Shown here in pieces: positions 25,720-52,497 of a DNA stretch of 64,000 nt. The position numbers were made by a program, and so were the translations under genes. This DNA is from Tranquillimonas alkanivorans (GTDB taxonomy: Bacteria; Pseudomonadota; Alphaproteobacteria; Rhodobacterales; Rhodobacteraceae), in the NCBI RefSeq assembly GCF_900115595.1, contig NZ_FOXA01000010.1:1-64000 (forward strand). The letters are read 5' to 3'. The notes under the pieces were generated by a model that was not told where the DNA came from, did no database searches, and worked only from the letters and a program-made list of their open reading frames with translations. Each line of letters begins with the position of its first letter. Within the stretch, counting starts at the first letter, position 1.

Positions 25720-25720
25720 G

Positions 25721-30356: not shown

Positions 30357-30374
30357 CTTGCTTTTCAAGAATAG
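30357..30374. promoter_or_regulatory. Candidate flagellar operator, fliL / fliF region
   Basis: CTTG (30357-30360), five bases, then CAAGAATAG (30366-30374). The same motif with 3-7 bases between its halves occurs at three other flagellar promoter regions in this window. It lies 46 bases before the fliF start and 82 before fliL. A partial copy, CAAGAACA, is at 30399-30406. Confidence 0.5.
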
Positions 30375-30420
30375 TTCGACCTAATGAACCCAGAGCAGCA
30401 AGAACAAAATCGGTGAAGCC

Positions 30421-32172
30421 TTGAAGGCGATCCTGGACAATCTCAAGTCGCTCGGGCGAACACGGCTTATCGCGCTCGGCGCCACCGGAGTGGGCCTTGT
30501 CGCCGCGCTGCTGTTCGGTCTGAACGCGGTGATGGCGCCGAGTTATGCGCCACTTTACAGCGAGCTTTCGCCGGCCGGCGCGGCCGACATCGTGAGCACG
30601 CTGGAACAGGCGGGCTTCGCGGTCGACGTGTCGCCCGATGGCACCACTGTAAGTGTGCCGCGCACGGATCTCGCCCGCGCGCGCATGTCGCTGGCCGAAC
30701 GGGGCCTGCCCGACCAGGGCGTGCCGGGGTGGGAACTGTTCGACAACGCCAGCGGTCTCGGCATGAACACGTTCATGCAGCGCGTGAACCGCTTGCGCGC
30801 GCTCGAGGGCGAACTCGCCCGCAGCATCCAAACCATCGACGGCGTCGATGCTGCGCGCGTGCACCTCGTCCTGCCCGAACGCGAGGCCTTCTCGCGCGAC
30901 CGGCCCGAACCCAGCGCTTCAGTCATCGTGCGCGGACGCGCGCGACACGCGATCTCGCGCCGGCAAGGGCAGGCCATCCGCGCGCTCGTCGCCTCGGCCG
31001 TGCCCGAGATGTCGCCGGGCCGCGTTACCGTGCTGTCGGCCACGGGCGAGACAATCCTGGCCGAAGACGGCGACGGCACGTCCGACATCACCCTGCAAAG
31101 CGTCCGCGCCTCGATCGAGGAACGGATGGCGCGCAACGTCTCGCAGATCCTGACGGCGCGCGTGGGCGCGGGCAACGCGCGCGTACAGGTGAGCGTGGAC
31201 TTGACCTCGGAGCGCGAGGTCGTCGTCTCGCGCAGCTTCGATCCCAGCCAGCAGGTCGCCCGCTCGATCGAGACGCGCGAGGAAGAAGTCGAGGACCGCG
31301 AGAACGCCAGCGGCGAGGTCGGCGTGGGCAACAACCTGCCCGAGGAGCTGCAGGACGGCGGTGCGAACGGCCCGCAATCGACCAACAGCCGGACCCGCAC
31401 CGACGAGATCGTCAACTATGAGATCGGATCGACCGAAAGCGAGACGACGCGCGAGCCCGGCGATATCGAACGGGTGTCGGTCGCGGTCCTGGTCAACGGC
31501 ATCTACGACACGCTTCCCAACGGCGACGTCGAATACCGCGAGCGCCCGGCGGAAGAGCTCGAACGGCTTGGCGAGCTGGTCAAGACCGCCATCGGCTTCA
31601 ACGAGGCGCGTGGCGACACCGTCTCGATCGACAGCCTGCGGTTCATGGACTACTCGATGGAACTGGGCGAGCCCGTCGGCCGGTCGATGGCCGCCGTGAT
31701 CTCGGACAGCCTGCCCAGCATCCTGCGCGGCCTGTTCGCCTTGGCGGTGATGGCGCTGATCCTGTTCTTCGGCATGCGGCCCCTCCGCGCGCTCATCGAG
31801 CCGAAGAAGATCGAGGACGAGACGCCGGCGCTGACCTCCGACGCGCAGGGCTATCCCGCGCTGACGGCAGAGGGACAGCAGGCAGCGGCACAGCAGGCGC
31901 AGATCGCCGCGACGCCCGGCGCCCTCCAACCGCAGGCCGGCCAGACGGCTATTGCGCCCGCCGGGGGCGGCACCGCGCTCGCCGCACCGGTCGCGGGAGC
32001 CGAGGCGCGGTCGGGCGACGTGCTGGACCCGGTGCAGGACGGCGAGGTCGTTCGTCTGGCCGCCGTGCACGGCGGCGTCGACCGTAAACGGCTGAACTCG
32101 GTTGGCGAGCTCGCCGAGTCGCACCCGGACGAGACGCTAAACGTCGTTCGCGGCTGGCTTCAGGAGGCCTGA
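30421..32172 (+). CDS. fliF: Flagellar MS-ring protein FliF
   Basis: The 583-residue protein has two membrane segments (about 17-38 and 425-448) and between them the ring-building domains with VDGVDAARVHL-type and LVLPEREAFSRD sequences, and the C-terminal cytoplasmic FliG-binding tail. The start is TTG at 30421: a stop lies in frame at 30385 and no ATG or GTG is available, with only a weak GGTGA nearby. A rare start may limit FliF levels. It opens the operon fliF-fliH-fliN-fliP-(97 aa)-fliG. Confidence 0.93.
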   Translation: MKAILDNLKSLGRTRLIALGATGVGLVAALLFGLNAVMAPSYAPLYSELSPAGAADIVSTLEQAGFAVDVSPDGTTVSVPRTDLARARMSLAERGLPDQGVPGWELFDNASGLGMNTFMQRVNRLRALEGELARSIQTIDGVDAARVHLVLPEREAFSRDRPEPSASVIVRGRARHAISRRQGQAIRALVASAVPEMSPGRVTVLSATGETILAEDGDGTSDITLQSVRASIEERMARNVSQILTARVGAGNARVQVSVDLTSEREVVVSRSFDPSQQVARSIETREEEVEDRENASGEVGVGNNLPEELQDGGANGPQSTNSRTRTDEIVNYEIGSTESETTREPGDIERVSVAVLVNGIYDTLPNGDVEYRERPAEELERLGELVKTAIGFNEARGDTVSIDSLRFMDYSMELGEPVGRSMAAVISDSLPSILRGLFALAVMALILFFGMRPLRALIEPKKIEDETPALTSDAQGYPALTAEGQQAAAQQAQIAATPGALQPQAGQTAIAPAGGGTALAAPVAGAEARSGDVLDPVQDGEVVRLAAVHGGVDRKRLNSVGELAESHPDETLNVVRGWLQEA

Positions 32173-32176
32173 CCCC

Positions 32177-32854
32177 GTGCACCCCGCCTTCTGCAGAGAC
32201 TTCGACGAGGAACACGCCGCGGCGCGCGCGCACGAAGAGCGCGCCGCCCGCGCCCGCTATACCGAGGAAGACCTCGCCGCTGCCATCGAGGCCGCGCGGG
32301 CCGAGGGACAGGAGGCCGGGCGGGCCAAAGGCCATGCCGCGGGCGCGGCCGAGATGCGCGACACGCTCCTCGCCCGCCACGCCGAGGCGCTCGAGACCCT
32401 CGTTCCGCAGCTCGAGACGTTGCTGCGCGATGCCGCCGCGCACCGCGCAGCGCTGGAAGCCCAGGTCGTCGATTTCGTCCTGTCGGTCTGCGAGCAGGTC
32501 TTCCCCGAATTCCTGCGCACCCGCGCCCGCGATCGCGCGCGGGAGCAGGTCGAGGACACGCTGCGCCTCGCGCTCGGCAGCGCGACCGTGCGCATCCGGC
32601 TTGCGCCCGATACGCTTGCCGCTCTCCGCCCCCGGATCGAGGCGGCGTGGCACGAGCGCGGCGCGCGCGGGCCGCTGGAAATCATCGGCGACGAAGGGCT
32701 GGGCGAGGGCGATGCGCGCATGGAGTGGGACAACGGCTTCATGGACTACAGCTTCGCCGAGGTCTGCGACCGCATCCTCGGCGCCCTGCGCGCGCGCGGC
32801 GCGGGCGCAGCCGCCGAACAGACGAACACCACCGGGAGCATGACACGTGGCTGA
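32177..32854 (+). CDS. fliH: FliH-like flagellar export regulator
   Basis: A 225-residue protein, very Ala/Glu/Arg-rich in its first half with GxxxG-like EGQEAGRAKGHAAGAAE (about 47-63), typical of FliH. The second half holds a V-ATPase E-subunit-like domain with VVDFVLSVCEQVFPEFL. FliH binds and inhibits FliI. GTG start at 32177 follows CAGGAGG. It overlaps fliN by eight bases. Assignment rests on shape and position between fliF and fliN. Confidence 0.8.
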   Translation: MHPAFCRDFDEEHAAARAHEERAARARYTEEDLAAAIEAARAEGQEAGRAKGHAAGAAEMRDTLLARHAEALETLVPQLETLLRDAAAHRAALEAQVVDFVLSVCEQVFPEFLRTRARDRAREQVEDTLRLALGSATVRIRLAPDTLAALRPRIEAAWHERGARGPLEIIGDEGLGEGDARMEWDNGFMDYSFAEVCDRILGALRARGAGAAAEQTNTTGSMTRG

Positions 32855-33263
32855 AAACGAGACACCGGAAGACGACGCGACGTCCGACAGCGACGCCCCC
32901 CGCCCGGCCGGGACCGACGTCTTCCCCGAGATTGGAGAGGGCGAAGGCGAAGGCGCGACCGTGATCGAGAACATGGTCGGCGGGCAGCTCGACGGCGCCG
33001 AGGGTGGCCGCAACATCAACGCGATGCTGAACGTCGGGCTGAACGTGCAGATCGTGCTTGGACATTGCCGCATGCCGATCGCGCAGCTTCTGGAACTCAG
33101 CCGCGGCTCGGTGATCGAACTGGACAAGAAGATCGGCGAGCCGGTCGAGGTCGTCGTCAACGAGCGCCTGGTGGCGCGCGGCGACCTGGTGAAGGTCGGC
33201 GAGGACCGCATCGGCGTCACGCTGACCGAGATCGTCAAGGACTACGTCTCTGAGCGCCGATGA
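32847..33263 (+). CDS. fliN: Flagellar motor switch protein FliN
   Basis: The 138-residue protein has an acidic, disordered N-terminus (about 1-55) and a SpoA domain: MLNVGLNVQIVLGHCRMPIAQLL and GEPVEVVVNERLVARGDLV, ending TEIVKDYVSERR. FliN forms the base of the C-ring. GTG start inside the end of fliH. The fliP gene follows after 25 bases. Confidence 0.94.
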   Translation: MAENETPEDDATSDSDAPRPAGTDVFPEIGEGEGEGATVIENMVGGQLDGAEGGRNINAMLNVGLNVQIVLGHCRMPIAQLLELSRGSVIELDKKIGEPVEVVVNERLVARGDLVKVGEDRIGVTLTEIVKDYVSERR

Positions 33264-33288
33264 CCCGCCCCGCCGCACAGCCCGGAGC

Positions 33289-34122
33289 GTGACGCTGATC
33301 GCGCGCCTTCATATCGCCGCGCTCGTGGCGCTGGCGACCGTGGCGCTCGTCGCGCCCGCGCCCGCGCCCGCGCAGGAGGCCGGCGGCTTCCTCGACGCGA
33401 TTTCACAGACGCTGAGCGACGCCGCGCCGGATTCGGACGAGGCCGCGTCGCTGAGCGGGCGCATCCTTCAGCTCATCGCGCTGATGACGGTGCTCAGCAT
33501 CGCGCCGGGGCTGCTGATCGTGATGACGAGCTTCACGCGCTTCGTCATCGTCTTCTCGATGCTGCGCTCGGCGCTGGGGCTCAACCAGACGCCGCCCAAC
33601 ATGGTGCTGTCGAGCATGGCGCTGTTCATGACCTTCTTCGTCATGCAGCCGGTGTTCGAGGACGCGTGGCAGGACGGCCTGCAGCCACTGCTGGACAACG
33701 CGATCACGGAAGAGCAGGCGTTCCCGCGCATCACGGACCCGTTCAAGCAGTTCATGTACGTCAACACCCGGCCCGAGGACCTGGCCCTGTTCCGCGACAT
33801 CGCCGCACGCTCGGCCGGCGACGAGGTGGAAGAGCCCCTGCCCGCCGCCACGCTGGAGGACGCCGGCTGGGGCGAACTGGTGCCCGCCTTCATGATCTCG
33901 GAGCTGCGGCGCGCCTTCTCAATCGGGTTCCTGATCTACCTGCCCTTCGTGGCCATCGACCTGATCGTCGCCTCGGTACTGATGAGCGCAGGCATGATGA
34001 TGCTGCCGCCGGTGCTGATCTCGCTGCCGTTCAAGGTGATTTTCTTCGTGCTGATCGACGGCTGGTACATGCTCGCGGGCAGCCTGATGGAGAGCTACCT
34101 GCCCATGGCGGGCGGAGGATGA
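33289..34122 (+). CDS. fliP: Flagellar export gate protein FliP
   Basis: A 277-residue membrane protein with a cleavable signal peptide ending in an Ala-Pro repeat (APAPAPAQ, about residues 22-29), four hydrophobic segments and FliP motifs such as TSFTRFVIVFSMLRSALGLNQ and SELRRAFSIGFLIYLPF. The GTG at 33289 is used; an ATG at 33260 is out of frame. The signal peptide is partly coded by hexanucleotide repeats (33350-33375). Confidence 0.95.
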   Translation: MTLIARLHIAALVALATVALVAPAPAPAQEAGGFLDAISQTLSDAAPDSDEAASLSGRILQLIALMTVLSIAPGLLIVMTSFTRFVIVFSMLRSALGLNQTPPNMVLSSMALFMTFFVMQPVFEDAWQDGLQPLLDNAITEEQAFPRITDPFKQFMYVNTRPEDLALFRDIAARSAGDEVEEPLPAATLEDAGWGELVPAFMISELRRAFSIGFLIYLPFVAIDLIVASVLMSAGMMMLPPVLISLPFKVIFFVLIDGWYMLAGSLMESYLPMAGGG

Positions 34123-34126
34123 CGGG

Positions 34127-34420
34127 ATGAGCGGAACCGCCCAGACGGTGAACGTCGACGAGCTGCTCCGACAGGAGCTGCTGCGCCATCCGCTGGGCGG
34201 CGAGGTGCTGGCGCTGGCCGACGAAGACGGGATCGACGTGGCCGACCCTGCCGCGCTTGCGCATGTCGTGGCCGGGATGGGCGCGAGCGGCGGGGCCGCC
34301 GACGCACGGATGGTGCTGCTGCTGGCGGCACTGCTCGACCTTCTGGCCCGGCACGAGACACGGCTTCAGCACGACAGCCGCACCGGCGGCCCGACCGGCG
34401 ACGCAGAAAGGACAGGCTGA
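34127..34420 (+). CDS. Hypothetical 97-residue protein between fliP and fliG
   Basis: A small soluble protein with mostly helical composition: VDELLRQELLRHPLG near the start and a hydrophobic stretch ARMVLLLAALLDLLARH at about 61-77. No family is recognised. It starts four bases after fliP (with GACGGG upstream) and ends one base before the fliG ATG, so it is translated with switch and export genes. It may be a switch-associated accessory or a chaperone; there is no direct evidence. Confidence 0.65.
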   Translation: MSGTAQTVNVDELLRQELLRHPLGGEVLALADEDGIDVADPAALAHVVAGMGASGGAADARMVLLLAALLDLLARHETRLQHDSRTGGPTGDAERTG

Positions 34421-34421
34421 C

Positions 34422-35468
34422 ATGGCGACCACGGCCCTCAAGCGACCCGACGAGCGCAAGGCGGCACGCCGCAGGCTGCGCGGCCCGGAAAAGGCGGCGA
34501 TCCTGTTCCTGTGCCTGGGCGAAAAGCGCGGCTCGGAGCTGATGCAGAAGCTCGAAGACCGGGATATCCAGCGCATCACCCGCGCGATGACGGGGCTGGG
34601 CATGATCTCGTCCGAGCAGGTCGAGGAAGTGATGGGCGAATACACCGACGCCGTGACCCACGGCGGCGGGATCGTCGGATCGTACGCCGCCGCCGAGGCC
34701 ATGCTGAGCAAGTTCCTCCCGGCCACGCAGGTCAGCGAGATCCTGAAGGAAGCCGGCGGGCTCGCGCGCGAGCGGGACATGTGGAAGCGCTTCGGCGCGC
34801 TGAACGAAAGCGTCATCGCCAACTACCTGAAGGGCGAACACGAGCAGACCGCGGCGGCGATCCTGAGCAATGTGCAGCCCGATGTGGCGGCTCGCGTCCT
34901 GCCGCTGCTGGGCCCCGAGAAGATGCAGGACATCGCCGAGCGAATGATCAGCATGGAAGCGGTGCCGCTGCACATGATGCGTCAGATCGAGGAGACGCTC
35001 AAAAGCGACATCATGGCCGACGCGGCGCACCCGACCGCCACGGACATGCAGCAACGCATGGCCGACCTGTTCAACAAGCTGGACCGGGACGCCTTCGACC
35101 GTATCTCGCCCGCGCTCGAAGAGCGGGTGCCCGAGGCGTTCGGCGCCATCAAGCAGAAGATGTTCACGTTCGAGGACCTGGTGAAGCTCGAGGCGCAGGA
35201 CCTCGCCCGCGTCATGCGTGGGGTCGACGGCAACGTCCTGCCGCTTTCCCTGCGCGGCGCCAGCAAGGATGTGCGCGACCACTTCCTGTCGGTGCTGCCC
35301 GCGCGATCGCGCGACATGCTGCTCGACGAGATGAGTTCGATGGGCCCCGTTCGGGGGCGCGACGTGCGCGTGGCGCAGGCGGCGATGGTCGACTTCGCCA
35401 AGGAGTTGGCCGAGGACGAGGAAATCCGCCTGCCGCTCGACGATGACGACGACGAGCTGATCGAGTGA
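34422..35468 (+). CDS. fliG: Flagellar motor switch protein FliG
   Basis: This 348-residue rotor protein shows FliG-N (LRGPEKAAILFLCLGE), the middle domain with EHEQTAAAILSNVQPDVAA, and the C-terminal torque helix region FTFEDLVKLEAQDLARVMR followed by LRGASKDVRDHFL and GPVRGRDV. FliG connects FliF to the C-ring and meets MotA. AAAGGA precedes the ATG at 34422. Its stop overlaps the GTG of the next gene. Confidence 0.95.
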   Translation: MATTALKRPDERKAARRRLRGPEKAAILFLCLGEKRGSELMQKLEDRDIQRITRAMTGLGMISSEQVEEVMGEYTDAVTHGGGIVGSYAAAEAMLSKFLPATQVSEILKEAGGLARERDMWKRFGALNESVIANYLKGEHEQTAAAILSNVQPDVAARVLPLLGPEKMQDIAERMISMEAVPLHMMRQIEETLKSDIMADAAHPTATDMQQRMADLFNKLDRDAFDRISPALEERVPEAFGAIKQKMFTFEDLVKLEAQDLARVMRGVDGNVLPLSLRGASKDVRDHFLSVLPARSRDMLLDEMSSMGPVRGRDVRVAQAAMVDFAKELAEDEEIRLPLDDDDDELIE

Positions 35469-36325
35469 GCGCGGACGCGGCGGCGCGCCTGATCTCGGCG
35501 CTGGCGGCCAATCATCCCGCGCGATCGGGCTGGATCACCGGCACGGTCGTGCAATCCTTCGCCGACGGCACGATGCGCCTGAACACGCCCTCGGGTTCTC
35601 TGCTGCTGCGCATCCCCGGCGGCTCGGCCGACGTGGGCGCCCGCGTACGGCTGCGGGTGGACGGCAACCGGGCGGACCTGCGCCCGCAGGCGGAGCCCGC
35701 GCCGCTTCCCACGGCCCGCTCGTCAATGCCGCCCGAGCCGCCGCGCGTGGCGCTGCCCCCGGCGCTGGCCGAGCTTCCGCCGGTCGTGCCCGGCGGCACG
35801 ACACAGCTTCAGGCGACGCAGACGCTCAGCGTCGTCTTCCCCTCGACCGCATCGCCCGCCTTCGCCGCGATCGCGGCCCTGTTCCCGGTGGTGCTGCGCG
35901 ACGGCACCCTGCGCGGGCTCGTCCCGCCGGGCGGCACCCGCTCCGCCGCAGTGGACGGACGGCTGACGCGAGCGGCGCGCGCGGCGCTCGACACGGCGAC
36001 GGCGCGACCGGTCGAGGACCCGGCCTTCCTGCGGTGGACGATGCCCTTCTTCGACGGCGGCACGCTGAACTATGCGCAGTGGACGCAGGACAGGGACGAC
36101 CGGCGCACGCACCTTCTGCTTGAGGTGAGCTTTGCCTTCTCGGGCCTCCTGCGACTGAACGCGGTGCGCGAGGGCGACCGGCTTTCGCTACACCTGCTGA
36201 GCGAAGCGCTACTGCCCGACGCGCTTCTGCGCTCGGTCGAGGACCTGGCGAGGCGGGTGGCCGAGGCCGGGGGCATGACGTTCGAGTTCGCCCACGCCGT
36301 CGGCCGCGCGGCAGACGCTCAGTAG
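35465..36325 (+). CDS. Unknown flagellar-cluster protein, possibly with a FliK-like C-terminal fold
   Basis: This 286-residue protein starts with GTG in the fliG stop (GTGA overlap). The first 75 residues look like a beta-rich domain (VVQSFADGTMRLNTPSGSLLLR). A Pro-rich linker follows. The C-terminal 90 residues (THLLLEVSFAFSGLLRLNAV, then LSLHLLSEALLPDALL) recall the FliK C-terminal pattern, where a protein surface is read by FlhB, but the match is by eye. The true fliK is at 51064. It ends in a 7-base overlap with the convergent DUF1217 gene. The role may be in hook-length or export control. Confidence 0.6.
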   Translation: MSADAAARLISALAANHPARSGWITGTVVQSFADGTMRLNTPSGSLLLRIPGGSADVGARVRLRVDGNRADLRPQAEPAPLPTARSSMPPEPPRVALPPALAELPPVVPGGTTQLQATQTLSVVFPSTASPAFAAIAALFPVVLRDGTLRGLVPPGGTRSAAVDGRLTRAARAALDTATARPVEDPAFLRWTMPFFDGGTLNYAQWTQDRDDRRTHLLLEVSFAFSGLLRLNAVREGDRLSLHLLSEALLPDALLRSVEDLARRVAEAGGMTFEFAHAVGRAADAQ

Positions 36326-37149
36326 GTCCGCCGCGGCAGCGCCGTAATCGCCGTGATGTCGAGCGTGATGGGCACGAAAGCCCCGCCGTTGCCCGCGCTC
36401 ACCGCTCCCTGCATCAACTGGACGGCCGCGTTCCCGGCGACCGCCGTGCCGCCTTTCGCGTCGGCGATGGCCGCGTATTTGCGAGTCAGCTTTTCCAGCT
36501 CCTTCGGATCCTGGAGCTTCTCGATGTCGAACTTTCGGGCGAACAGCGCAGCTTGGCGGTCGACGTCGAGCTGCACCATCGAGTCCGGCAACCCCAGCGC
36601 CGTGCGGAAGAAGCTGGATACGTCGCGATCCTTGAGCACGTCGAGCCAGCTGCCGATCTCGCCCGCCTTCTGACGGACTTCAAGCGCGATGCCGACCGTC
36701 TCGCTCTGCTCGGCCTGCGCGTTGATGAACTGCCGGTCCAGGTATCGGTCGATCATCGCCTCCTGCCAGGCGGGGTCGAGCGTGTTGCTGCTGGTCGTCT
36801 TGCCGTCGACGGTCTCGAAGCCCATGCCCTTGTAGAGGTCGCGGATGCGCGGGTCGGTCAGGCGGTTGACCAGAGCCGTGCGGTCGTCGATGTCGCTTTC
36901 CAGGACCTTCTTCATCATCGCCTTGCCAAAGATCTGATCCTCCAGATCGTAGGTTCGCATCACGAAGGCATAGAGTTCCTGATCCTCGATCAGCTGGTCC
37001 ACCGTCTGCACATCGGCGATACGTTCGCGGAAGGAGGTGATGGCGCGCGCGTGGACCGGGCTTCTCTCGATCGACTGCATCTGGCGGTCGCGGGTCGCGT
37101 CCACAAGCTTGAGCGACATCTGCGTGCCCAGCCCGGACAGCGGGATCAC
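36319..37149 (-). CDS. DUF1217 flagellar protein
   Basis: A 276-residue helical protein with the DUF1217 pattern: VDQLIEDQELYAFVMRTYDL, GKAMMKKVLESD, ALVNRLTDPRI and RYLDRQFINAQAEQ. DUF1217 proteins are found in flagellar gene clusters of alphaproteobacteria; their role is not established. Its GTG start overlaps the flbT stop (GTGA), so it is the third gene of flaF-flbT-DUF1217, suggesting a link to flagellin control or secretion. It overlaps the convergent gene by seven bases. Confidence 0.8.
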   Translation of the reverse strand: MIPLSGLGTQMSLKLVDATRDRQMQSIERSPVHARAITSFRERIADVQTVDQLIEDQELYAFVMRTYDLEDQIFGKAMMKKVLESDIDDRTALVNRLTDPRIRDLYKGMGFETVDGKTTSSNTLDPAWQEAMIDRYLDRQFINAQAEQSETVGIALEVRQKAGEIGSWLDVLKDRDVSSFFRTALGLPDSMVQLDVDRQAALFARKFDIEKLQDPKELEKLTRKYAAIADAKGGTAVAGNAAVQLMQGAVSAGNGGAFVPITLDITAITALPRRTY

Positions 37150-37592
37150 GGCTCGGCCCCGTCCAGTTCGTCCGGCGCCACTTCGTCGCGCGGCTGCGCC
37201 GCCGCGACGTGCGCGAAGACCTCTTCCTCGCGCTTCATCACCGGGCGGAGCGAGCGCATCGCCTTGTAGTAGTCGCCCATGCTGACGAAGTTCGCGGCCT
37301 CGAACACGTGGCCCATGGTCTCGGGCCCGAAGCAGGTCGCCAGGTCGGCAAGCTGGGTCTGGATAATCGGCACGATCTTTTCGCGCACGTCGGCCCGGAT
37401 CAGCGCGGTCTGGATCAGGAAATAGGCCTTGCGCACCGGCGTGGCCTCGCCGTCGGGTTCCAGCAGATCGTGCCCCCGCACCACATCTGCGCGGCTTTCG
37501 ATGGTCAGGACCTGACGGCGGTCGGCGTTGCGGATGGCGCAGCCGTTGACGATGATGCGCTCGTTGGGCTTCAGGGTCAGCTTGAGTGCCAT
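37146..37592 (-). CDS. flbT: Flagellin translational regulator FlbT
   Basis: The 148-residue protein opens with LKLTLKPNERIIVNGCAI and continues with ADVVRGHDLLEP and YFLIQTALI, the FlbT signature. In Caulobacter FlbT binds flagellin mRNA and represses it until the hook is complete. The gene lies seven bases after flaF and overlaps the DUF1217 gene. The flagellin gene itself is not in this window. Confidence 0.93.
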   Translation of the reverse strand: MALKLTLKPNERIIVNGCAIRNADRRQVLTIESRADVVRGHDLLEPDGEATPVRKAYFLIQTALIRADVREKIVPIIQTQLADLATCFGPETMGHVFEAANFVSMGDYYKAMRSLRPVMKREEEVFAHVAAAQPRDEVAPDELDGAEP

Positions 37593-37599
37593 GGTCGCC

Positions 37600-37998
37600 T
37601 TACCCCTGCGGACTGGGCGCCGCGCCCGAAAGGCCCGCGATCACGTGACGGTTCACGGTGACCAGCGCGCCGACCCCCGGCTCGCCCCCCAGGGCGCGCG
37701 TCGTCTGCCGCTCGACCCACATGGCCAGCGACAGGAGCGAGGCGCGGAGCTCCGGCGGCAGCCGGTTTCCCGCGTCGGCAAGGTCGTTCCTGAGCGCGCC
37801 CCAAATCTTCTGGTTCTCGGCCAGGCTGTCGCGCAGCCCGCCCGCCAGCAGCTCGAGCCGTGGCCCTCGCCCATCTGCCGCGTCGAAATCATGCGCGGAT
37901 TGCTCCAGCTCGCCGGTGATGCGAGACAGAATGCGCCGCTCGATCTGGCGCGGGCTCTCGCTTTCCCGGATCGTCCGCTTGTACGCCGCGATGCTCAT
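37600..37998 (-). CDS. flaF: Flagellar biosynthesis regulator FlaF
   Basis: The 132-residue protein has the FlaF features: IAAYKRTIRESESPRQIERRI near the start, then QNQKIW-like ENQKIWGALRNDLAD. FlaF is required for flagellin secretion and works with FlbT. ATG at 37998 (MSIAAYK) follows a GAGGGG-GAAG stretch and agrees with family length; the frame upstream is not conserved. A 131-base gap precedes it on the operon side. Confidence 0.92.
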   Translation of the reverse strand: MSIAAYKRTIRESESPRQIERRILSRITGELEQSAHDFDAADGRGPRLELLAGGLRDSLAENQKIWGALRNDLADAGNRLPPELRASLLSLAMWVERQTTRALGGEPGVGALVTVNRHVIAGLSGAAPSPQG

Positions 37999-38129
37999 GC
38001 CTTCTGCTTCCCCTCTGGCCGCGTCGTTTCTGCGCGGCTTTTCCGTTACTGCTCCGGACCGCCGCTCCAGCACGTGACGCCAGCCCGGGACGACCCTAGG
38101 CGGCGGAAATGGCTGAAGTTAGGCGGAAA

Positions 38130-38537: not shown

Positions 38538-38542
38538 GCCTG

Positions 38543-39966: not shown

Positions 39967-39989
39967 GTCCCCGATCTCGTCCCCGATTG

Positions 39990-40005
39990 CTTGCAGCAAG
40001 AATAG
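39990..40005. promoter_or_regulatory. Candidate flagellar operator, flgI / ftcR region
   Basis: CTTG (39990-39993), three bases, then CAAGAATAG (39997-40005). It is the tightest-spaced of four copies of this motif in the window, 23 bases before the flgI start and 137 bases before ftcR. Confidence 0.5.
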
Positions 40006-43404: not shown

Positions 43405-43429
43405 GCCGCCGCTCCGTCAGCCACCCGGT

Positions 43430-44737: not shown

Positions 44738-44782
44738 GAACTGCTACCTCTTCTGCTCGGCTCAACGGGCTTTTTAATCAGG

Positions 44783-44795
44783 ATAGTCAAGAAAA
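44783..44795 (-). promoter_or_regulatory. Promoter-like element before flgE
   Basis: On the minus strand TTTTCTTGACTAT matches the ftcR element (40057-40069) at 12 of 13 positions. A further CAAGGACAG (44810-44818) next to it is one mismatch from the right half of the flagellar operator motif. Confidence 0.35.
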
Positions 44796-44847
44796 TGCCT
44801 CTGAGGATACAAGGACAGAATTATTTCCCGCATGCGCTATCCCTGCA

Positions 44848-46641
44848 TCACTCGGACGCGCCCGCCTCCAGCTCCCCCAGCGCCTCGAGGGTTCGCTCCG
44901 CCCGCGCCACGCGGTCCCGCGCCGTTTGCGCCCGCAGCGGCAGAACGCCGGGCACCGTGCCGGAGAGATCCGCTGCGACCTCGGACCAGCGCCGCGACTG
45001 CGCGGCATCCGGAAACGCCTCGGCGACTTCCGCGGCCAGGTCCGCATCACCGGCACGGTGGGCGGAGAGGAGGAGGTTCACCGCGTCCTCGAACGGCAGC
45101 CCAGCGCCCAGCGTGCGCCACAGCGCGGCGTAGTGATCCTGCGCCGCCGCCCATTCTTCCCGTGCGAAGCGGGCCTCGGCCATGAGCCGCAGGTAGTCCG
45201 GCGAGGGGCGCGCCATCTTTGTCGCCAGCACGCCGTCGACCTCGCCCGCCTCGGCACTGGCACGCGCCTTGAGGTGGTTCCACCTGTCGCGCAGACCCGG
45301 TGCGGTGATGGCACGGTCGAGCAACGCCGCGGCCTCGGCGTACCGTCCGCCGTCGATCAGCGCCTCGGCCCGCTTCAGCCGAAGCGCATCGAGCCGGGCG
45401 ACGGGCACGTCCTGCAGGCCGAGAGCCGAGGCCGCGGCAAGGTAGTCGTGCACCAGCCCGTATTCCCGCGCCGCAACGGCCGTGGCGCCGGCCGCGCGGA
45501 AGCGGTCGGCGAATCGTTCGCCCTGCGCGGCGAAGGTTTGGTCGAAGCGGTAATCGACCGCAATGCGCTGGTGGCCTGCGAGGAATTCCGTCAACGGCAT
45601 CTCACCCTCCGCGCCCCGCCCGTAATAATCCTCCATCAGCGCTCGCGCCTGCTGCCGCGCCAGGGCCGCCGCCTCGCTATCCGGGAAGTCCCGACCTATC
45701 TGGGCCAGCACCTCGAGCGCCGAGACAGTGTTGCCAAGTTCCAGGTCGATCTCAACGATCTCGCGCAGGGCGTGCAGGGCGTGCACGTCCCCGCGCCACA
45801 GGGTCCGGCTCAGGTCCAGGATCTCGCGGGCCTCGCGCGGCGACAACGCGCCCGTCCGCCGCCCCAGTTCGACCAGCGCCAGCCGCGCGCGCTGCGCGAA
45901 TACGCCCGCCTCCTGTGCCGCCGCCACGTAGCTATCGAAGGCGGCGACAAGCTGCCCGCCGCTCTCGGCCGCTTGGCCCAGCAGGAAGCGATAGGAGGGC
46001 GCAGCTTGCAGAGCGGGAATCGCCTCCATCCGTGCGGCAAGATCGCGCGCGGGGGCCCAGGCTTCGGCCTCGATGGCGGCCTCGAGCAGATCCGGCAGCA
46101 GGTACTCGGCCAGCGCCGTGGGTAGCGCGTCGATCTGCGCCACGACTTCTTCGAGCGTCGCGAGCTGCGCGTCGTTCCCCGCGCGCAGGTGCCTGACGGC
46201 CCGCCAGAGCGCGGCCTCGGGCCAGCCGGCGAAAGCCTCTGATCCAGGCAAGGTGCCGCCCGGCGCGAGCACCGCGTGCACCGCATCGAGGGCACGCCAG
46301 CGATCCGCCTGCGACGACGGCAGCGCCTGGGGGTCGAGCGCGTCGAGGACCGAGCGCGCCTCGTGCAGCATGACGTGCGAGAGGTAGAGCGCGGCGAGGT
46401 CGAGCGCAGCGCCGTGCAACCTGGCCTCGGGCGCATCGGGGGCCGAGACGGCGTCCGCCAGCGCCGCGCGATGCTCCAGGAACTCGCCCCGCTCGTATTG
46501 GGGCAGGCGCAGGCCCGCCACCGGCCGGGTTGCCCGCGCCTCCCCCTCGCCGAGCGCGGCCCGCGGCTGCACCGGCGCGTCCGTGGACGCCGCTGCCGCT
46601 GTCGCGCAAGCCAAGCACAACGGAAGAACAAGTCGCATCAT
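44848..46641 (-). CDS. Large periplasmic helical-repeat (TPR-like) protein
   Basis: This 597-residue protein has a signal peptide (about 1-19: RLVLPLCLACATAAAAS) and then almost only Ala/Leu/Arg-rich helical pairs, for example EILDLSRTLWRGDVHALHALR, ALEVLAQIGRDFPDSEAAALA and LRLMAEARFAREEWAAAQDHY (noted within residues 280-520), which resemble TPR/Sel1 repeats. It lies between flgE and flgF and shares the flgF promoter region with its candidate operator. A periplasmic repeat protein in a cluster with motE suggests a motor scaffold, like rhizobial MotC, but no homology to MotC is claimed. Unknown function. Confidence 0.7.
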   Translation of the reverse strand: MMRLVLPLCLACATAAAASTDAPVQPRAALGEGEARATRPVAGLRLPQYERGEFLEHRAALADAVSAPDAPEARLHGAALDLAALYLSHVMLHEARSVLDALDPQALPSSQADRWRALDAVHAVLAPGGTLPGSEAFAGWPEAALWRAVRHLRAGNDAQLATLEEVVAQIDALPTALAEYLLPDLLEAAIEAEAWAPARDLAARMEAIPALQAAPSYRFLLGQAAESGGQLVAAFDSYVAAAQEAGVFAQRARLALVELGRRTGALSPREAREILDLSRTLWRGDVHALHALREIVEIDLELGNTVSALEVLAQIGRDFPDSEAAALARQQARALMEDYYGRGAEGEMPLTEFLAGHQRIAVDYRFDQTFAAQGERFADRFRAAGATAVAAREYGLVHDYLAAASALGLQDVPVARLDALRLKRAEALIDGGRYAEAAALLDRAITAPGLRDRWNHLKARASAEAGEVDGVLATKMARPSPDYLRLMAEARFAREEWAAAQDHYAALWRTLGAGLPFEDAVNLLLSAHRAGDADLAAEVAEAFPDAAQSRRWSEVAADLSGTVPGVLPLRAQTARDRVARAERTLEALGELEAGASE

Positions 46642-46664
46642 GCGTGCGGGATCCGGTTATTTTA

Positions 46665-46684
46665 CTTGCTTCATACAAGAACAG
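46665..46684. promoter_or_regulatory. Candidate flagellar operator, flgF / repeat-protein region
   Basis: CTTG (46665-46668), seven bases, then CAAGAACAG (46676-46684). It lies 23 bases before the start of the periplasmic repeat protein, the same distance as at flgI, and 66 bases before flgF. Confidence 0.5.
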
Positions 46685-46750
46685 GCTACAGAATCGCCGT
46701 GCTCGCAACAAGCATCAACAAGATCCAGACGGAAGACGCCGCGCCCAAGC

Positions 46751-47497
46751 ATGGATAATTCGACCTACGTCTCCATCTCTCTCGCAAGCGCGATGCGCCG
46801 GGCGCTCGAAGTGTCGGCCAACAACATGGCCAACGCCAACACTGCGGGCTTCAAGGGCGAGCGCGTGGTCTTCGAGTCCTACATGCACACCGAGTCGGGC
46901 AGCGGTGACGGGACCAGCTTCGTGCTTGACAAGGGTTCGTACCTCGACGGCACGCAGGGCACGATCACCCACACAGGCAACCCGCTCGACGTGGCGGTGC
47001 AGGGCGATGGGTGGCTGTCTTATCTCACGCCGACGGGGCAGCGGGCCTATGGCCGCGACGGCCACCTCACGGTCGACGCGCAGGGCAACCTGATGACGCT
47101 GAGCGGGGCGCGGGTGCTCGACGCCGGCGGCGGCCCCATCGCGCTGCCGCCCGATCTGAACGGCGAGGTGACGATCTCGGCCGACGGCGCGATCACCACG
47201 CCGCAGGGCGATGTCATCGCGGCACTCGGCCTGTTCGACGTCCCCGAGATCCAGTCGTTCGAGCGCATCGGCGCGGGCATGTTCGTCCCGCCGGGCGAAG
47301 GCGATCTGCCCCAGCCGGTCCCCGCCATCGGCACCACCGTCGTGCAGGGCGCGGTCGAGGGCAGCAACGTTGAGCCCATCGTCGAGATGACGCGCATGAT
47401 GGACATCCAGAAAGCCTATGAACGGTCGGTCAAGCTGATGGGCAGCGAGGACGACCTGCGCAAGGACGCCCTGCGGCGTCTGGGCCAGACCACGTGA
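46751..47497 (+). CDS. flgF: Flagellar proximal rod protein FlgF
   Basis: The 248-residue protein has the rod motif SANNMANANTAGFKGER near residue 22, VAVQGDGWLSY, and the C-terminal EPIVEMTRMMDIQKAYERSVK segment (split in description; about 213-233). FlgF forms the proximal rod; FlgG follows 25 bases later. ATG at 46751 was chosen because family members start just before SLASAMRRALE. Confidence 0.94.
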   Translation: MDNSTYVSISLASAMRRALEVSANNMANANTAGFKGERVVFESYMHTESGSGDGTSFVLDKGSYLDGTQGTITHTGNPLDVAVQGDGWLSYLTPTGQRAYGRDGHLTVDAQGNLMTLSGARVLDAGGGPIALPPDLNGEVTISADGAITTPQGDVIAALGLFDVPEIQSFERIGAGMFVPPGEGDLPQPVPAIGTTVVQGAVEGSNVEPIVEMTRMMDIQKAYERSVKLMGSEDDLRKDALRRLGQTT

Positions 47498-47522
47498 CGG
47501 GACGGGAAAGGAACACCGCACC

Positions 47523-48308
47523 ATGAAAGCGCTTGGCATCGCAGCGACGGGAATGCTGGCACAGCAAACCAACGTCGACGTCATCTCGAACAACATCGCC
47601 AACGCCAACACGACGGGCTTCAAGAGCAGCCGGGCAGCGTTCCAGGACCTGATCTACCAGTCGCTCGAACGCGAGGGCGCACTGACCTCGGAAGAGGGCA
47701 CCGCGCGTCCCACCGGGGTCGACGTGGGCCTTGGCGTACAGACCGCCGGCACCGTGCGGCTGAACACGCAGGGCGGGATGATCGCGACCGAGAACCCGCT
47801 CGACCTGGCCATCGACGGCAAGGGCTATTTCACCGTCCTGATGCCCGACGGAGCGCAGGCTTTCACGCGCGACGGTAGCTTCCAGGTCAATGCCGAGGGG
47901 CAGCTCGTCACCATGCAGGGCTACGAGGTCGACCCGGGTATCAACGTACCCGAGAACACGGTGAACATCGAGATCAGCGAGCAGGGCACCGTCACCGCCT
48001 ATGTCGAGAACGATCCCGAGCCGGTCGAGCTGGGTCGCGTCACCATGGCGACCTTCGTCAACGAGGGCGGCCTGCGCGCCACGGGGAACAACCTGCTGAT
48101 GGCGACCGTCGCGTCGGGCGATCCGCTTCCCGCCAATCCCGGCGATCCGGGCGTGGGCGTCGTCCGCCAGGGGCACCTGGAAGGGTCGAACGTGAACATC
48201 ATCCAGCAGATCACCGACCTGATCTCGGCGCAGCGCGCGTACGAGATGAACTCGAAGGCGATCGAGACGGCCGACCAGATGATGTCCACGGCAAACCAGA
48301 TCAAGTGA
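47523..48308 (+). CDS. flgG: Flagellar distal rod protein FlgG
   Basis: The 261-residue protein reads MKALGIAATGMLAQQTNVDV at the start, with SNNIANANTTGFKSSR and the C-terminal EGSNVNIIQQITDLISAQ and AYEMNSKAIETADQMM. FlgG forms the distal rod. It is followed by flgA after four bases, then flgH, giving the operon flgF-flgG-flgA-flgH-(FliL-like). Confidence 0.96.
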   Translation: MKALGIAATGMLAQQTNVDVISNNIANANTTGFKSSRAAFQDLIYQSLEREGALTSEEGTARPTGVDVGLGVQTAGTVRLNTQGGMIATENPLDLAIDGKGYFTVLMPDGAQAFTRDGSFQVNAEGQLVTMQGYEVDPGINVPENTVNIEISEQGTVTAYVENDPEPVELGRVTMATFVNEGGLRATGNNLLMATVASGDPLPANPGDPGVGVVRQGHLEGSNVNIIQQITDLISAQRAYEMNSKAIETADQMMSTANQIK

Positions 48309-48312
48309 CGCC

Positions 48313-48972
48313 ATGCGCCGCCTGATCACCCTCCTGACCGCGCTCCTGCTTTGCCCCGCCCTCGCCGGGGCCGAGGCGCTGAACGTGCTGATCGAGGAGA
48401 AGGCCCGCGAAAGCTACGGCACCGGCCTGCCCGACACCGGCGAGTTCGAGATCACAGTGCAGGGCGGCGGCGATCTGGACGCGGTGATGCTGTCGGCCTT
48501 CTGGATGGACACCTCGACCGGACAGTTCGTGGCCAATGCCGTGCTGCCGGAGGGTGACGTTCGCCGCATTTCGGGGCTTGCCCTGCTGACAGTGCCGGTG
48601 CCGGTCCCGCTGCGCCGCATCATGCCGGACGAGATCCTGTCCGAGGCCGACCTGAAGGTGGTCCGCCTGCCCCACGGCCGTGTCGGCGCCTTTGCGGTGA
48701 CGGGTATGGATGACCTCGTGGGAATGCAGGTGCGCAGGGTGCTCAGCCAGGGCCGCCCGGTCATGGCGCAATCGGTGATGCAGCCGCTGGTCATCGACCG
48801 GGGCGACCGGGTCGCCATCCGCTTCCGCGACGGGCGGCTCGAACTCAGCGCGCCGGGGCGAGCGCTGGCCGACGCGCACCGGGGGCAGGAAGTGAAGATC
48901 GTCAATCTCGTCAGCAACACGTCTCTCGTCGGCATCGCCACCGGTGAAGGCGTCGTGGAGGTCATCAATTGA
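48313..48972 (+). CDS. flgA: P-ring assembly chaperone FlgA
   Basis: A 219-residue periplasmic protein with a signal peptide (about 1-20, ending AGAEA) and a C-terminal SAF domain: VPVPVPLRRIMPDEILSEADL is the typical entry, with VGMQVRRVLSQGRPV and GQEVKIVNLVSNTSLVG. FlgA assists P-ring assembly by FlgI. Its stop overlaps the TTG start of flgH. Confidence 0.92.
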   Translation: MRRLITLLTALLLCPALAGAEALNVLIEEKARESYGTGLPDTGEFEITVQGGGDLDAVMLSAFWMDTSTGQFVANAVLPEGDVRRISGLALLTVPVPVPLRRIMPDEILSEADLKVVRLPHGRVGAFAVTGMDDLVGMQVRRVLSQGRPVMAQSVMQPLVIDRGDRVAIRFRDGRLELSAPGRALADAHRGQEVKIVNLVSNTSLVGIATGEGVVEVIN

Positions 48973-49724
48973 GACGCACGCCGCTTGTCCCGCTCGGCCT
49001 TGCCGTCACGCTCGCCGCCTGCGGCACCCCCTCGCCCTTCGATCGGGACCCGGAGGTGTCGAGCCTTGTCGTGGACGAGACGACGATCCCCGAGGCGCGG
49101 GTCCGCGTGCCGATGCCCGAACCCGAGCCCCCGCGCCTGCCGTACCGCGCCGAGCGCGCGTCACTTTGGGAGAGGGACTCGGCCGGCTTCTTTGCCGATC
49201 AGCGGGCCACCGACGTGGGCGACATCCTCACAATCATCATCAGCATCGAGGACGAGGCGCAGCTGCGCAACGCCTCGAGCCGCGAGCGAGAGGGCGCGAG
49301 CCAGCTGCCGCTGCCCAACTTCTTCGGCTACGGCACGCAGATCGACCGGATCCTGCCCGGCGTCGGCCCCGAGGACCTGCCCACCGGCGACCTTGTCGAC
49401 CTTAGCTCTTCGACCGCCGTCAACGGCACCGGCTCGATCAACCGGTTCGAGACGATCAACCTCAAGGTCGCGGCGCTGGTCGTGCAGGAGCTGCCAAACG
49501 GCAACCTCGTCGTCGCCGGCCGGCAGGAGGTGAAGGTGAACCAGGAACTGCGCGAACTGCGTGTCGCGGGCATCATCCGCCCGCAGGATATCCAGACGAA
49601 CAACACCATTCCGTACGAGAAAATCGCCGAGGCGCGTATCGCCTATGGCGGCCGCGGAGAGTTGTCGCGCGCGCAGCAGCGGTCTTACGGCGAGGACGTC
49701 ATGGACATCATCTTGCCTTACTGA
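48969..49724 (+). CDS. flgH: Flagellar L-ring lipoprotein FlgH
   Basis: The 251-residue protein starts with TTG overlapping the flgA stop and has a lipoprotein signal with lipobox LAAC (Cys18). The core SLWERDSAGFFADQRATDVGDILTI and VNGTGSINRFETINLKVAALV (about residues 58-80 and 152-172) and the ending EDVMDIILPY mark FlgH. It forms the L ring in the outer membrane. Confidence 0.95.
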   Translation: MRRTPLVPLGLAVTLAACGTPSPFDRDPEVSSLVVDETTIPEARVRVPMPEPEPPRLPYRAERASLWERDSAGFFADQRATDVGDILTIIISIEDEAQLRNASSREREGASQLPLPNFFGYGTQIDRILPGVGPEDLPTGDLVDLSSSTAVNGTGSINRFETINLKVAALVVQELPNGNLVVAGRQEVKVNQELRELRVAGIIRPQDIQTNNTIPYEKIAEARIAYGGRGELSRAQQRSYGEDVMDIILPY

Positions 49725-49799
49725 CGCGAATTATTGCCTCAGGAAGACAGAATTCGCGACAGATTGCGGTGACATACTGGGCGCTGACCGCAAACCCGG

Positions 49800-50372
49800 A
49801 TGTCACCGACGATGAAGAAGACCACCCTTCTGATGGCCGCCCTCCCCATGCTCAGCCTCGCCGCCGGCTATGGCGCCGGCCCGATGCTGCTTCCGGCGGA
49901 AGCCTCCGTCCCCGCACCCAAGGCATCGGATGACGACGATGCGCGCGCCTACCTCGAGGCGCGGGCCGAGCAGCCTGCCGCGCCCAACGAGGTCGCGCCG
50001 GCGGCGGAAGGCCATACTGCAGATGAGGACGCCGAAACGCCGGCAGAGCCCCCGCAGCAGGTAGTGAACTTGGGCCGCATGACGGTCCCGGTCTACAAGC
50101 CGCGCAGCGTGACCTACGTCGTCGCCGATTTCGGCGTCTCGGTCGGTGCCGGACGGGCCGAGCATTATCGCGTGGGCGAGCACGCCGCGCGCCTGCGCGA
50201 CGCGATCCTGCAATCCATGGCGCGCGCGGCGAGCGGCGAGATGATGGCCGGCGCCGCCATCGACACCGAACTTCTGTCAAAGGAGATCGGCACCGACATC
50301 CGCCGCGACTTCGCGGATGTCGAGGACGTGCTGTTCCTGTCGCTGTTCAAGACCGACGTGCCGAGAAGCTAG
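49800..50372 (+). CDS. FliL-like second protein
   Basis: A 190-residue protein with one N-terminal hydrophobic segment (about 8-28), an acidic Ala/Pro/Glu linker and a C-terminal domain with VVNLGRMTVPVYKPRSVTYVV and LRDAILQSMARAASG and VEDVLFLSLFKTDVP, which follows the FliL layout (strand, strand, long helix). ATG at 49800 or the in-frame ATG at 49812 could be used. It follows flgH by 75 bases and is convergent with flgD (two bases apart). It would be a paralogue of the FliL at 29693, acting near stators; this is inference from pattern. Confidence 0.6.
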   Translation: MSPTMKKTTLLMAALPMLSLAAGYGAGPMLLPAEASVPAPKASDDDDARAYLEARAEQPAAPNEVAPAAEGHTADEDAETPAEPPQQVVNLGRMTVPVYKPRSVTYVVADFGVSVGAGRAEHYRVGEHAARLRDAILQSMARAASGEMMAGAAIDTELLSKEIGTDIRRDFADVEDVLFLSLFKTDVPRS

Positions 50373-50374
50373 GC

Positions 50375-51052
50375 TCAGAACACCCGCTCGATCAGCGCGG
50401 CGTTCGTCTCGTCGCCGTTGCTCAGCACCAGCGTGGGCTGGCCGTCGCTGAAGCTCAGCGTCTCGACTCGCGCGCGGCTGTACCCGGTATAGGACACCGG
50501 CTCGCCTTCGGCATCCTGCGCCACCACCTCGACCCGGAACGTGCCGTCGGGCACCGGCAGACCCGAGCGGTCAGTTCCGTCCCAGGCAACCGCGTGCCGC
50601 TCGCCCGCCGACACGGGCAGGTCGTCGATGGTCTGCACCTCGGTGCCGTCTTCCGACAGGATGCGCAGCTCGACGCTCTCCGCCTCTCCCGAAAGCTCGA
50701 ACGAGAACTCGGCCGCACCGTCGACCAACTCGATCCGGTCGCTGGGGACGGCCACCTCGCGCCCGATCAGCTGCACCCCGGCAAGCGCCTGGGCGCTGGC
50801 GAGCCGTGTGGCGATGTCTTCGAGGTTGGAGTTCGTGACGATCGACTGCTCCACCTGGCTCAACTGCGCAAGCTGCGACACGAAGGTGGTCGAGTCCATC
50901 GGTTCCAGCGGGTCCTGGTTGGCCACCTGAGCCGTCAGCAGCTTGAGAAAGCTGTCGTAGTCCGCGCCAAGCGTGTTCATCGAGTTCTGCGCCCGGGACG
51001 TCCCCGCCGCGGCGCTCCCGGTGGCCGTTGTAATGGTGCTGTCGATCGCCAT
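50375..51052 (-). CDS. flgD: Hook-cap protein FlgD
   Basis: The 225-residue protein shows DYDSFLKLLTAQVANQDPLEPMDSTTFVSQLAQLSQVEQ across residues 31-69, the FlgD signature, then FlgD Ig/tudor-like beta domains with AVAWDGTDRSGLPVPDGTF. FlgD caps the growing hook. It follows fliK by 11 bases on the minus strand. Confidence 0.95.
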   Translation of the reverse strand: MAIDSTITTATGSAAAGTSRAQNSMNTLGADYDSFLKLLTAQVANQDPLEPMDSTTFVSQLAQLSQVEQSIVTNSNLEDIATRLASAQALAGVQLIGREVAVPSDRIELVDGAAEFSFELSGEAESVELRILSEDGTEVQTIDDLPVSAGERHAVAWDGTDRSGLPVPDGTFRVEVVAQDAEGEPVSYTGYSRARVETLSFSDGQPTLVLSNGDETNAALIERVF

Positions 51053-51063
51053 TCCGCTTGTCC

Positions 51064-52491
51064 TCAGGTGAATATGTCCAGCCGCCCGTCGCCCGCTATC
51101 GCGCCAGTTCGCTCCGCCACGGGTGCTGCGACTTCTTCCTCTTCCTCCGCCGAGGGCCCTGCCGTCTGCCCGAAGGTGTGACCGCCCGCGTTGCGCCCGG
51201 ACTGCTGGAAGTCCAGTTCCGCCCCGTTCTGGCCCGACCCACGGCCGCCCAGCATCGACATCAGCGTGTCGCCGTCGCTGCGCAGCGCCTGCAGGACCAT
51301 GGGGTTCTCGGCCCTGATCACGACGCGCAGTTTGCCGGCCTCGGCCGGCTGCAACTCGATCTCCAGCCCGCCCAGGCCGCGCGGTGTCAGCTCGATCCGC
51401 GTGGTGCCTTCGCTGAAGCTCGTCTTGCGGATCTGCCCCATGAGGTTCTGCTGAAGCTCGCTCGGCGGCCGCGCGCCTTCCTGCCGAACGGCCGCTTCCG
51501 AGGCGGGCGCGGCCCTCTGCTGCGCCTCCGCCGCCTGCACCGCCGCGGCGAAGGCGGCGCGCATCTGCCCCTCGCCCGACTCGCTCAACGGCGGGATGGC
51601 TTGCGACACCGACACGGCGAGGCCAGCGGGCCTCTGGGCGTGTTGCTTGCCCACCTCCTGCGCATTCGTCGGAAGCTCGGTGGTGCCGGTCGGCGTTCCT
51701 GCCGGGCCGGCTGCTAACGACTGAGTGGCCAGCGCGGGGACGGATTTTCCACCCGTGGCTCCCGGCACAGCACCTTCCGCCCGCGAAACCGCCAGAGCCG
51801 CCGAGCCCTCGGCCGGAACAGACCGCTGCTCTGGCGCACGCGCCTCCGGGGCCATCGCCCCCGCGAGCGACAGCCAGCCTGTACCGCGAGCGGGCTCCGG
51901 GAGGTGCATTCCGACGGCCTCGGAAGGGGGCAGGCCCAGCGCCGCCCGCACGTCCTGAAACAGGGTCGCGGCGGTGGTGGCAGTGCCGTTCGGTGTGACG
52001 GACGGGAACATTTGCGGGTTGCCCGCGTGGGGCGCCCGATCCGCACCGGCTTCCAGTTGTGCCACCAGCAGCGAAAGGGAGTTACCTCCGGTGCTGCGGT
52101 CGAACTGCTCCAGACTGCCGACGAGCGCCTGCGCGGCGTCGGCCAGCGCCACGGCGACATCCTTCCGCGCGGGCGGCTGTGGCAGCGCTTCGAGCTCCGC
52201 CCGCAACCCCTGCTCGACCGCCTCGAGCGTCTCACCCAGAAGAGCGGTCGCTGCCGGCACGTCCGTGCCTTCGGGAAATCCGAGCGCCGTGATCGGTTCC
52301 TGCGCGTCCACGGACGCCGTCGGCTGGCCCTGCGAGGCGTGCAGCAGGGCTGCGAAGACGTCTCCACTAGCCTGCGCCGCTCCGCGCGGAACCTGCCTGG
52401 CCGCCGTCGCGCCCATGCCAAAGAGCGCTGTCAGGTCCACGGTGTTACGCTGCCGTTCATGCCGAAGGCTCCACTGTACTTGAAGCATCAA
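51064..52491 (-). CDS. fliK: Hook-length control protein FliK
   Basis: Up to 475 residues, with a long Ala/Pro/Glu-rich variable region and a FliK C-terminal domain: IELTPRGLGGLEIELQPAEAG (about 379-399), then LRVVIRAENPMVLQALRSD and LDFQQS. It measures hook length and flips FlhB. The start is uncertain: 52491 is TTG and 52488 ATG, but both lie inside the candidate operator; GTG at 52440 (VDLTALFGMG) or ATG at 52416 may be the real start. The gene is followed by flgD. Confidence 0.88.
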   Translation of the reverse strand: MMLQVQWSLRHERQRNTVDLTALFGMGATAARQVPRGAAQASGDVFAALLHASQGQPTASVDAQEPITALGFPEGTDVPAATALLGETLEAVEQGLRAELEALPQPPARKDVAVALADAAQALVGSLEQFDRSTGGNSLSLLVAQLEAGADRAPHAGNPQMFPSVTPNGTATTAATLFQDVRAALGLPPSEAVGMHLPEPARGTGWLSLAGAMAPEARAPEQRSVPAEGSAALAVSRAEGAVPGATGGKSVPALATQSLAAGPAGTPTGTTELPTNAQEVGKQHAQRPAGLAVSVSQAIPPLSESGEGQMRAAFAAAVQAAEAQQRAAPASEAAVRQEGARPPSELQQNLMGQIRKTSFSEGTTRIELTPRGLGGLEIELQPAEAGKLRVVIRAENPMVLQALRSDGDTLMSMLGGRGSGQNGAELDFQQSGRNAGGHTFGQTAGPSAEEEEEVAAPVAERTGAIAGDGRLDIFT

Positions 52492-52497
52492 GAACAG
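52479..52497. promoter_or_regulatory. Candidate flagellar operator before fliK
   Basis: CTTG (52479-52482), six bases, then CAAGAACAG (52489-52497). It covers the two most upstream possible fliK starts, which argues that fliK really begins at 52440 or later. Confidence 0.45.

Follow-up and report, generated by a model that had tools for sequence, protein, structure and literature searches.

Regulators compared with the fla2 cluster of Tranquillimonas alkanivorans

The regulators closest to what we describe here, an array-forming sequence element upstream of most operons in the fla2-type flagellar cluster of Tranquillimonas alkanivorans, are the Ros/MucR zinc-finger proteins, the OmpR-type flagellar regulators FtcR and Rem, and CtrA. 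Members of the Ros/MucR family oligomerise on AT-rich promoters and are mostly repressors (PMC9779718). Two MucR proteins bear on the present case: that of Sinorhizobium fredii, which lowers motility genes (PMC8857273), and that of Brucella, which works with counter-silencers and is displaced by an activator (PMC10746212). FtcR of Brucella melitensis and Rem of rhizobia, the latter described as aspartate-less (PMC9812332), are OmpR-type flagellar regulators with an atypical receiver; the published motif of Brucella FtcR is TGTGGGCA (PMC9456535). In Rhodobacter sphaeroides the divergent pairs fliL/fliF and fliI/flgB are under CtrA (PMC6180460). The fla2 reference strain is Marinovum algicola DG898, and fla2 clusters are often plasmid-borne and spread horizontally (PMC12363192).

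The stretch analysed, hereafter the window, comprises the first 64,000 nucleotides of contig NZ_FOXA01000010.1 (genome of 4,543,020 bases in 92 contigs). Its flagellar cluster agrees in gene order and homology with that on plasmid pMaD5 of DG898, which identifies it as fla2-type, and a FliF search of the genome returned a single FliF. As in R. sphaeroides, the divergent pairs fliL/fliF and fliI/flgB appear to share one regulator; the CtrA site TTAA-N7-TTAA is, however, unlike the half-site arrays found here. The Brucella FtcR motif TGTGGGCA has 0 matches in the window, with 1.44 expected by chance. The element of the fla2 cluster is real: it is the half-site of this cluster, forms arrays, is, of the promoters compared, confined to those of fla2 and persists where ftcR has been lost. 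The reading we favour, with a probability of roughly 0.6, is that it constitutes the fla2 operator, read by an oligomeric, silencing MucR1 encoded in the cluster itself; the candidacy of MucR1 as the reader derives from co-occurrence and site architecture.

A conserved half-site upstream of the fla2 operons

The initial annotation described four composite sites, each a CTTG followed at a short distance by CAAGAAYAG, upstream of flagellar operons. All four stand where it placed them (Table 1): the pattern CTTGN{3,9}CAAGAAYAG matches the window four times against 0.02 expected, with none of 100 shuffles reaching four, and these are also the only matches in the whole genome, all inside the flagellar cluster. 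The confinement of CAAGAAYAG to the same places was likewise borne out (four matches in the window, 0.20 expected), as was a 23-base spacing to the starts of flgI (39966) and the repeat-protein gene (46641). The composite matched at least once in 104 of 198 family genomes, and a control pattern read backwards was about equally frequent. By itself the composite is not diagnostic; the weight rests on its clustering and its placement before operons.

For comparison across species we used 25 loci from Rhodobacteraceae that encode a close relative of FtcR, the other 50 of the 75 returned loci being distant paralogs; the gene order is common to the fetched loci wherever these are long enough (L037 spans just 3.3 kb). 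A de novo expectation-maximisation search was run separately on the upstream regions of ftcR (25), fliF (13, this gene being reached in only 13 of the 25 loci) and flgF (22; L036 and L051 yielded no region by the start pattern used). In all three independent promoter sets CAAGNATAG was the best word, appearing as CAAGaATAg or its complement with log-likelihoods of 110-208, versus 22-40 for three shuffles per set. The search of relatives' flagellar upstream regions suggested by the initial annotation thus recovers the motif, and relatives with the same gene order, in which its absence had been named as counter-evidence, possess it. The conserved unit is the 9-bp half-site CAAGNATAG, and the CTTG to its left forms the core of another half-site, inverted and variably spaced: upstream of fliF, CTTG-N5-CAAGAA occurs in 6 of the 13 readable relatives (L035, L049, L054, L055, L057 and L058) and the N6 spacing in one further relative, L050.

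A matrix trained on the relatives' regions, with the window excluded, recovers the annotated places and adds a fifth at fliI/flgB, where the match at 21328 (overlapping another at 21332) is level with the best sites. The right half of site 3 (46674/46676) is weaker, scoring 11.0. At a score of at least 12.5, 18 of the 19 matches in the window fall inside the cluster, and 15 of these 18 lie outside listed genes, though only 9.3% of the cluster is uncovered by the list; since that list, made from open frames, omits a few real genes, the intergenic test is conservative. The three in-gene matches are at 21248, 55154 and 46748, the last of which overlaps the start of flgF. Among the partial copies proposed earlier, those at 30399 (score 16.8) and 44810 (score 14.4) hold up, and that at 55045 is not among the matches of at least 12.5. 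On the held-out plasmid pMaD5, 13 of the 16 top matches lie between annotated flagellar-cluster genes.

The arrays also set fla2 fliF regions apart from the others compared. At least two matches scoring 12 or more occur upstream of fliF in 22/22 fla2 genomes versus 0/27 other FliF loci, one of which has a single match; these 27 controls were drawn from 50 non-fla2 FliF matches and are presumed, rather than typed, to be fla1. Permuted matrices gave at most 1.09 matches per fliF region, against 3.32 for the real matrix. As FtcR was the criterion for choosing the training set, the five fla2 loci that lack it lie outside that set; some FtcR-bearing loci may be inside it. Conversely, TTAA-N7-TTAA is matched at 7 of 8 positions in all 27 non-fla2 fliF regions (L118-L144) and at 7 or 8 of 8 in 9 of the 22 fla2 regions, which may hint at a clean split of flagellar promoters into a CtrA-type and a CAAGNATAG-type.

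Table 1. Half-site arrays and regulatory genes of the fla2 cluster in the window
Feature	Coordinates	Strand	Remarks
fla2-type flagellar cluster, fliI to motA	19966..57672	not assigned	about 37.7 kb
Site 1, fliL/fliF	30357..30374	+	CTTG-N5-CAAGAATAG; more half-sites at 30333 and 30397
Site 2, flgI/ftcR	39990..40005	+	CTTG-N3-CAAGAATAG; extra match 40065-40076 (-) closer to ftcR
Site 3, repeat protein/flgF	46665..46684	+	inverted pair, of which the left half, 46659-46670 (-), is strong
Site 4, upstream of fliK	52479..52497	+	inverted pair 52473 (-) and 52487 (+)
Fifth place, divergent fliI/flgB	21328..21359	+	half-sites; overlooked in the initial annotation
Half-site, repeat-protein gene/flgE intergenic	44808..44819	+	matrix match
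Two weaker half-sites upstream of motA	56717..56757	not assigned	overlooked in the initial annotation
ftcR, OmpR-type regulator with degenerate receiver	40143..40895	+	only PF00486 found by Pfam; alignment
mucR1, Ros/MucR zinc-finger protein, proposed reader	54582..55025	-	PF05443 E 1.9e-34; Ros structure 2jsp E 2.3e-18
Second, shorter MucR-like gene adjoining mucR1	55154..55477	-	PF05443 E 2.8e-23

Architecture of the arrays

Each fliF upstream region of the 22 fla2 genomes holds two to five matches of at least 12, in either orientation, and inverted and direct pairs are about equally common (106 vs 95). Within each orientation class the distances between half-site centres are periodic, at 10.7-11.1 bp: direct pairs (n=95) give R 0.68, convergent pairs (n=63) R 0.67 and divergent pairs (n=43) R 0.71, with 0/2000 nulls as high in each case, figures which are inflated by the relatedness of the sequences. 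The phasing is separately upheld at fliF, at ftcR for direct and convergent pairs, and at flgF for direct pairs; divergent pairs at flgF are less strongly phased (n=13; 44/2000 nulls as high), and two orientation classes with 4 and 5 pairs are too small for the test. Such phasing by orientation class is consistent with the predicted binding of an oligomer to the DNA.

FtcR is not supported as the sole reader

The FtcR of the window shows the hallmark of the FtcR/Rem type: an OmpR-type C-terminal DNA-binding domain, no reported receiver domain, and a receiver region that is degenerate in the alignment. Its nearest host paralog is CtrA, with a nearly identical recognition segment. Of 394 family genomes, 17 encode FtcR, and each of these is among the 22 with a fla2 FliF. 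G236 was considered as an eighteenth and rejected, its sole match being partial and CtrA-like.

The initial annotation had proposed one regulator for these operons, with FtcR as the natural candidate. A single regulator agrees with the cross-species motif, the arrays and their specificity; FtcR as the sole reader is not supported, being contradicted by natural losses, for ftcR is missing from 5 of the 22 fla2 genomes (G006, G107, G170, G177 and G262), which keep their arrays. In these five the gap between flgI and the flagellin gene is too short for ftcR, and no FtcR was found at E <= 1e-40; in G006, searched to 1e-10, only CtrA and other OmpR-type proteins appeared. Genomes without and with FtcR have 2-5 and 2-5 matches, respectively, upstream of fliF (Mann-Whitney p = 0.71). 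On the FliF tree 5 changes in FtcR are needed, at least 4 of them forced by well-supported branches. Two Loktanella salsilacus plasmids also carry a fla2 cluster devoid of ftcR, an absence that refers to the plasmid sequences; arrays were measured in one of them (L217). With sites of the motif in the flgI/ftcR interval, control of ftcR through it is plausible.

Regulators of the OmpR type commonly recognise direct repeats spaced by about one turn, and direct pairs with this spacing do occur in the arrays. It could hence be argued that FtcR reads the motif where present and that another protein took over after its loss, the more so as FtcR is limited to fla2 genomes (17/17), adjoins one of the sites, and has no evident motif of its own. 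With the half-sites masked, the search for a second motif returned nothing convincing (log-likelihoods of 38-77 vs 28-61 for shuffles), the fliF and flgF sets lying somewhat above the shuffles with AT-rich words. We nevertheless consider this account unlikely: it has to accommodate at least four separate losses with arrays intact, inverted pairs that are no rarer than direct ones, and the different published site of the paralog CtrA despite the near-identical recognition segment (PMC6180460). Two Azospirillum clusters with FtcR but little motif further argue against it.

The latter are on two plasmids, out of 12 Azospirillum and Indioceanicola records, whose flagellar clusters encode a regulator closer to FtcR than to CtrA (L114 19824-20648 and L115 19872-20660). 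We take these plasmid-borne Azospirillum clusters to be those of lateral flagella. Neither has an annotated MucR gene within 20 kb, and five of their eight upstream regions have 0 matches of at least 12, the other three having 1, 2 and 1; two of these three are upstream of the FtcR-like regulator itself.

MucR1 as the candidate reader

The product of mucR1 belongs to the Ros/MucR family, with PF05443 above the cutoff and C-x2-C-x9-H-x4-H zinc ligands in the alignment. At E <= 4.1e-36 it is found in every one of the 22 fla2 genomes and in none of the 372 others, where the best match is at 1.0e-29; weaker paralogs, at E <= 1e-12, occur in another 38 genomes. In 20 of the 22 it is on the contig of fliF or ftcR, the misses being the fragmented assemblies G301 (about 560 contigs) and G381 (about 340 contigs). 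Among plasmids, it is on 17/17 FtcR-bearing Rhodobacterales records and on the two Loktanella records; at E <= 1e-20 it was not found on the 12 Azospirillum and Indioceanicola records. Of eight other fla2 sets, all but the S. mediterraneus stretch include it, and there it is encoded just beyond the stretch. Among domain-annotated DNA-binding proteins, MucR1 alone is shared by the compared fla2 clusters. Given this co-occurrence and the losses of FtcR, the presence of the motif therefore tracks MucR1, not FtcR.

We propose that the CAAGNATAG arrays at most operon starts would serve as the operator of the fla2 cluster, along which a MucR1 oligomer may bind on one face of the DNA with several weak half-sites acting together. 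By analogy with known MucR proteins, MucR1 is probably a silencer that holds the fla2 promoters down. FtcR, where present, would be an accessory component that relieves silencing or activates on top of it, and is thus one possible antagonist.

A close precedent is Ros with its ros-box in Agrobacterium, which shares with the present case a Ros/MucR zinc finger and a 9-bp inverted-repeat operator; in our own comparison with the ros-box given in PMC9779718, 6 of the 9 positions of the half TGAAATATA are the same in GCAAGTATA. Unlike the ros-box, the fla2 arrays have a CAAG core and up to five half-sites per region in either orientation, and target one flagellar cluster. The MucR proteins of S. 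fredii and Brucella belong to the same family as MucR1, but are global regulators with little consensus, whereas MucR1 is a cluster-borne, dedicated form with a CLCCG signature in place of the mostly CLECG of the others and, should it prove to read the arrays, would have a sharply defined motif.

Several observations weigh against MucR1 as the reader. The sharpness of the motif is itself one, known MucR proteins having little consensus (PMC10746212). Upstream of mucR1 the specificity of the sites is not clear, since a match of at least 11 lies within 350 bp of the gene in 18 of 22 fla2 genomes, versus 4 of 8 for unrelated mucR genes (Fisher p = 0.16), and in a comparison of two clades the motif did not covary with the zinc-finger flanks. 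When orientations are pooled there is no 10.5-bp phasing, because inverted pairs are offset by about half a turn. Finally, the lack of another motif for FtcR leaves room for FtcR also reading the half-site.

As we read them, the arrays provide a specific operator for the fla2 flagellum, none having been found in searches of the open-access literature. If MucR1 does read them, it would be a MucR protein that is clearly sequence-specific and serves a single mobile cluster. Beside mucR1, a similar short MucR-like neighbour occurs in 9 of the 22 fla2 genomes, the window's included. Near mucR, the fla2 clusters of Marinovum (L111 35957-36619) and Sulfitobacter (L225 2576-3256) have a further gene for an OmpR-type winged-helix protein, for which no counterpart was found in the window.

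Host regulators, sigma factors and the mobility of the cluster

A regulator of the host, with its gene outside the cluster, would also account for persistence of the arrays without FtcR. Such a reader is quite unlikely in our judgement: the motif is constant while the cluster moves between hosts (PMC12363192), and 5 of the 33 genomic CAAGWAYAG matches are inside the cluster, which is 0.8% of the sequence. Of seven places read outside it, most have single matches and five have at most two half-site matches; the exceptions are L226 (G000:C24) with five and L231 (G000:C83) with four within 2 kb. The word CAAGWAYAG is scarce genome-wide, with 33 matches vs 125 for the pattern read backwards. A same-genus genome, G331, has neither the fla2 type of FliF nor FtcR nor MucR1.

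CTTG resembles the -35 box of RpoH, and an RpoH-like sigma factor gene adjoins fliK in the Marinovum and two Sulfitobacter clusters, with a close homolog 11-13 kb from ftcR in four genomes (G092, G350, G355 and G384). The motif might accordingly be taken for a core promoter element of such an alternative sigma factor. We regard this as highly improbable: orientation and spacing vary, unlike those of a core promoter, and arrays are present although no close homolog of the sigma gene was found in the window's genome (best match 1.6e-17) or in the FtcR-less cluster stretches of G006, G170, G107, G177 and Loktanella L217.

The window has no sigma gene beside fliK, whose upstream region is 52416-52547, and the Marinovum counterpart of site 4 is upstream of the sigma gene. 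With a close homolog lacking in the window's genome, the fliK site hence seems to occupy the place of the Marinovum region upstream of that gene. Of the eight further fla2 sets, the same 5 lack both FtcR and the sigma gene. This joint absence suggests that FtcR and the sigma factor form one dispensable module.

We tentatively entertain, as a possibility somewhat short of even, that the moving cluster brings its own sequence-specific MucR silencer together with the operator arrays and is thereby self-controlled on arrival, FtcR and the sigma factor having been repeatedly discarded. If true, this would go some way towards explaining how a flagellar cluster of almost 38 kb moves between hosts independently of the host CtrA circuit. 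The window itself, in which FtcR is kept and the sigma gene lost, suggests an intermediate in the loss of the FtcR/sigma module.

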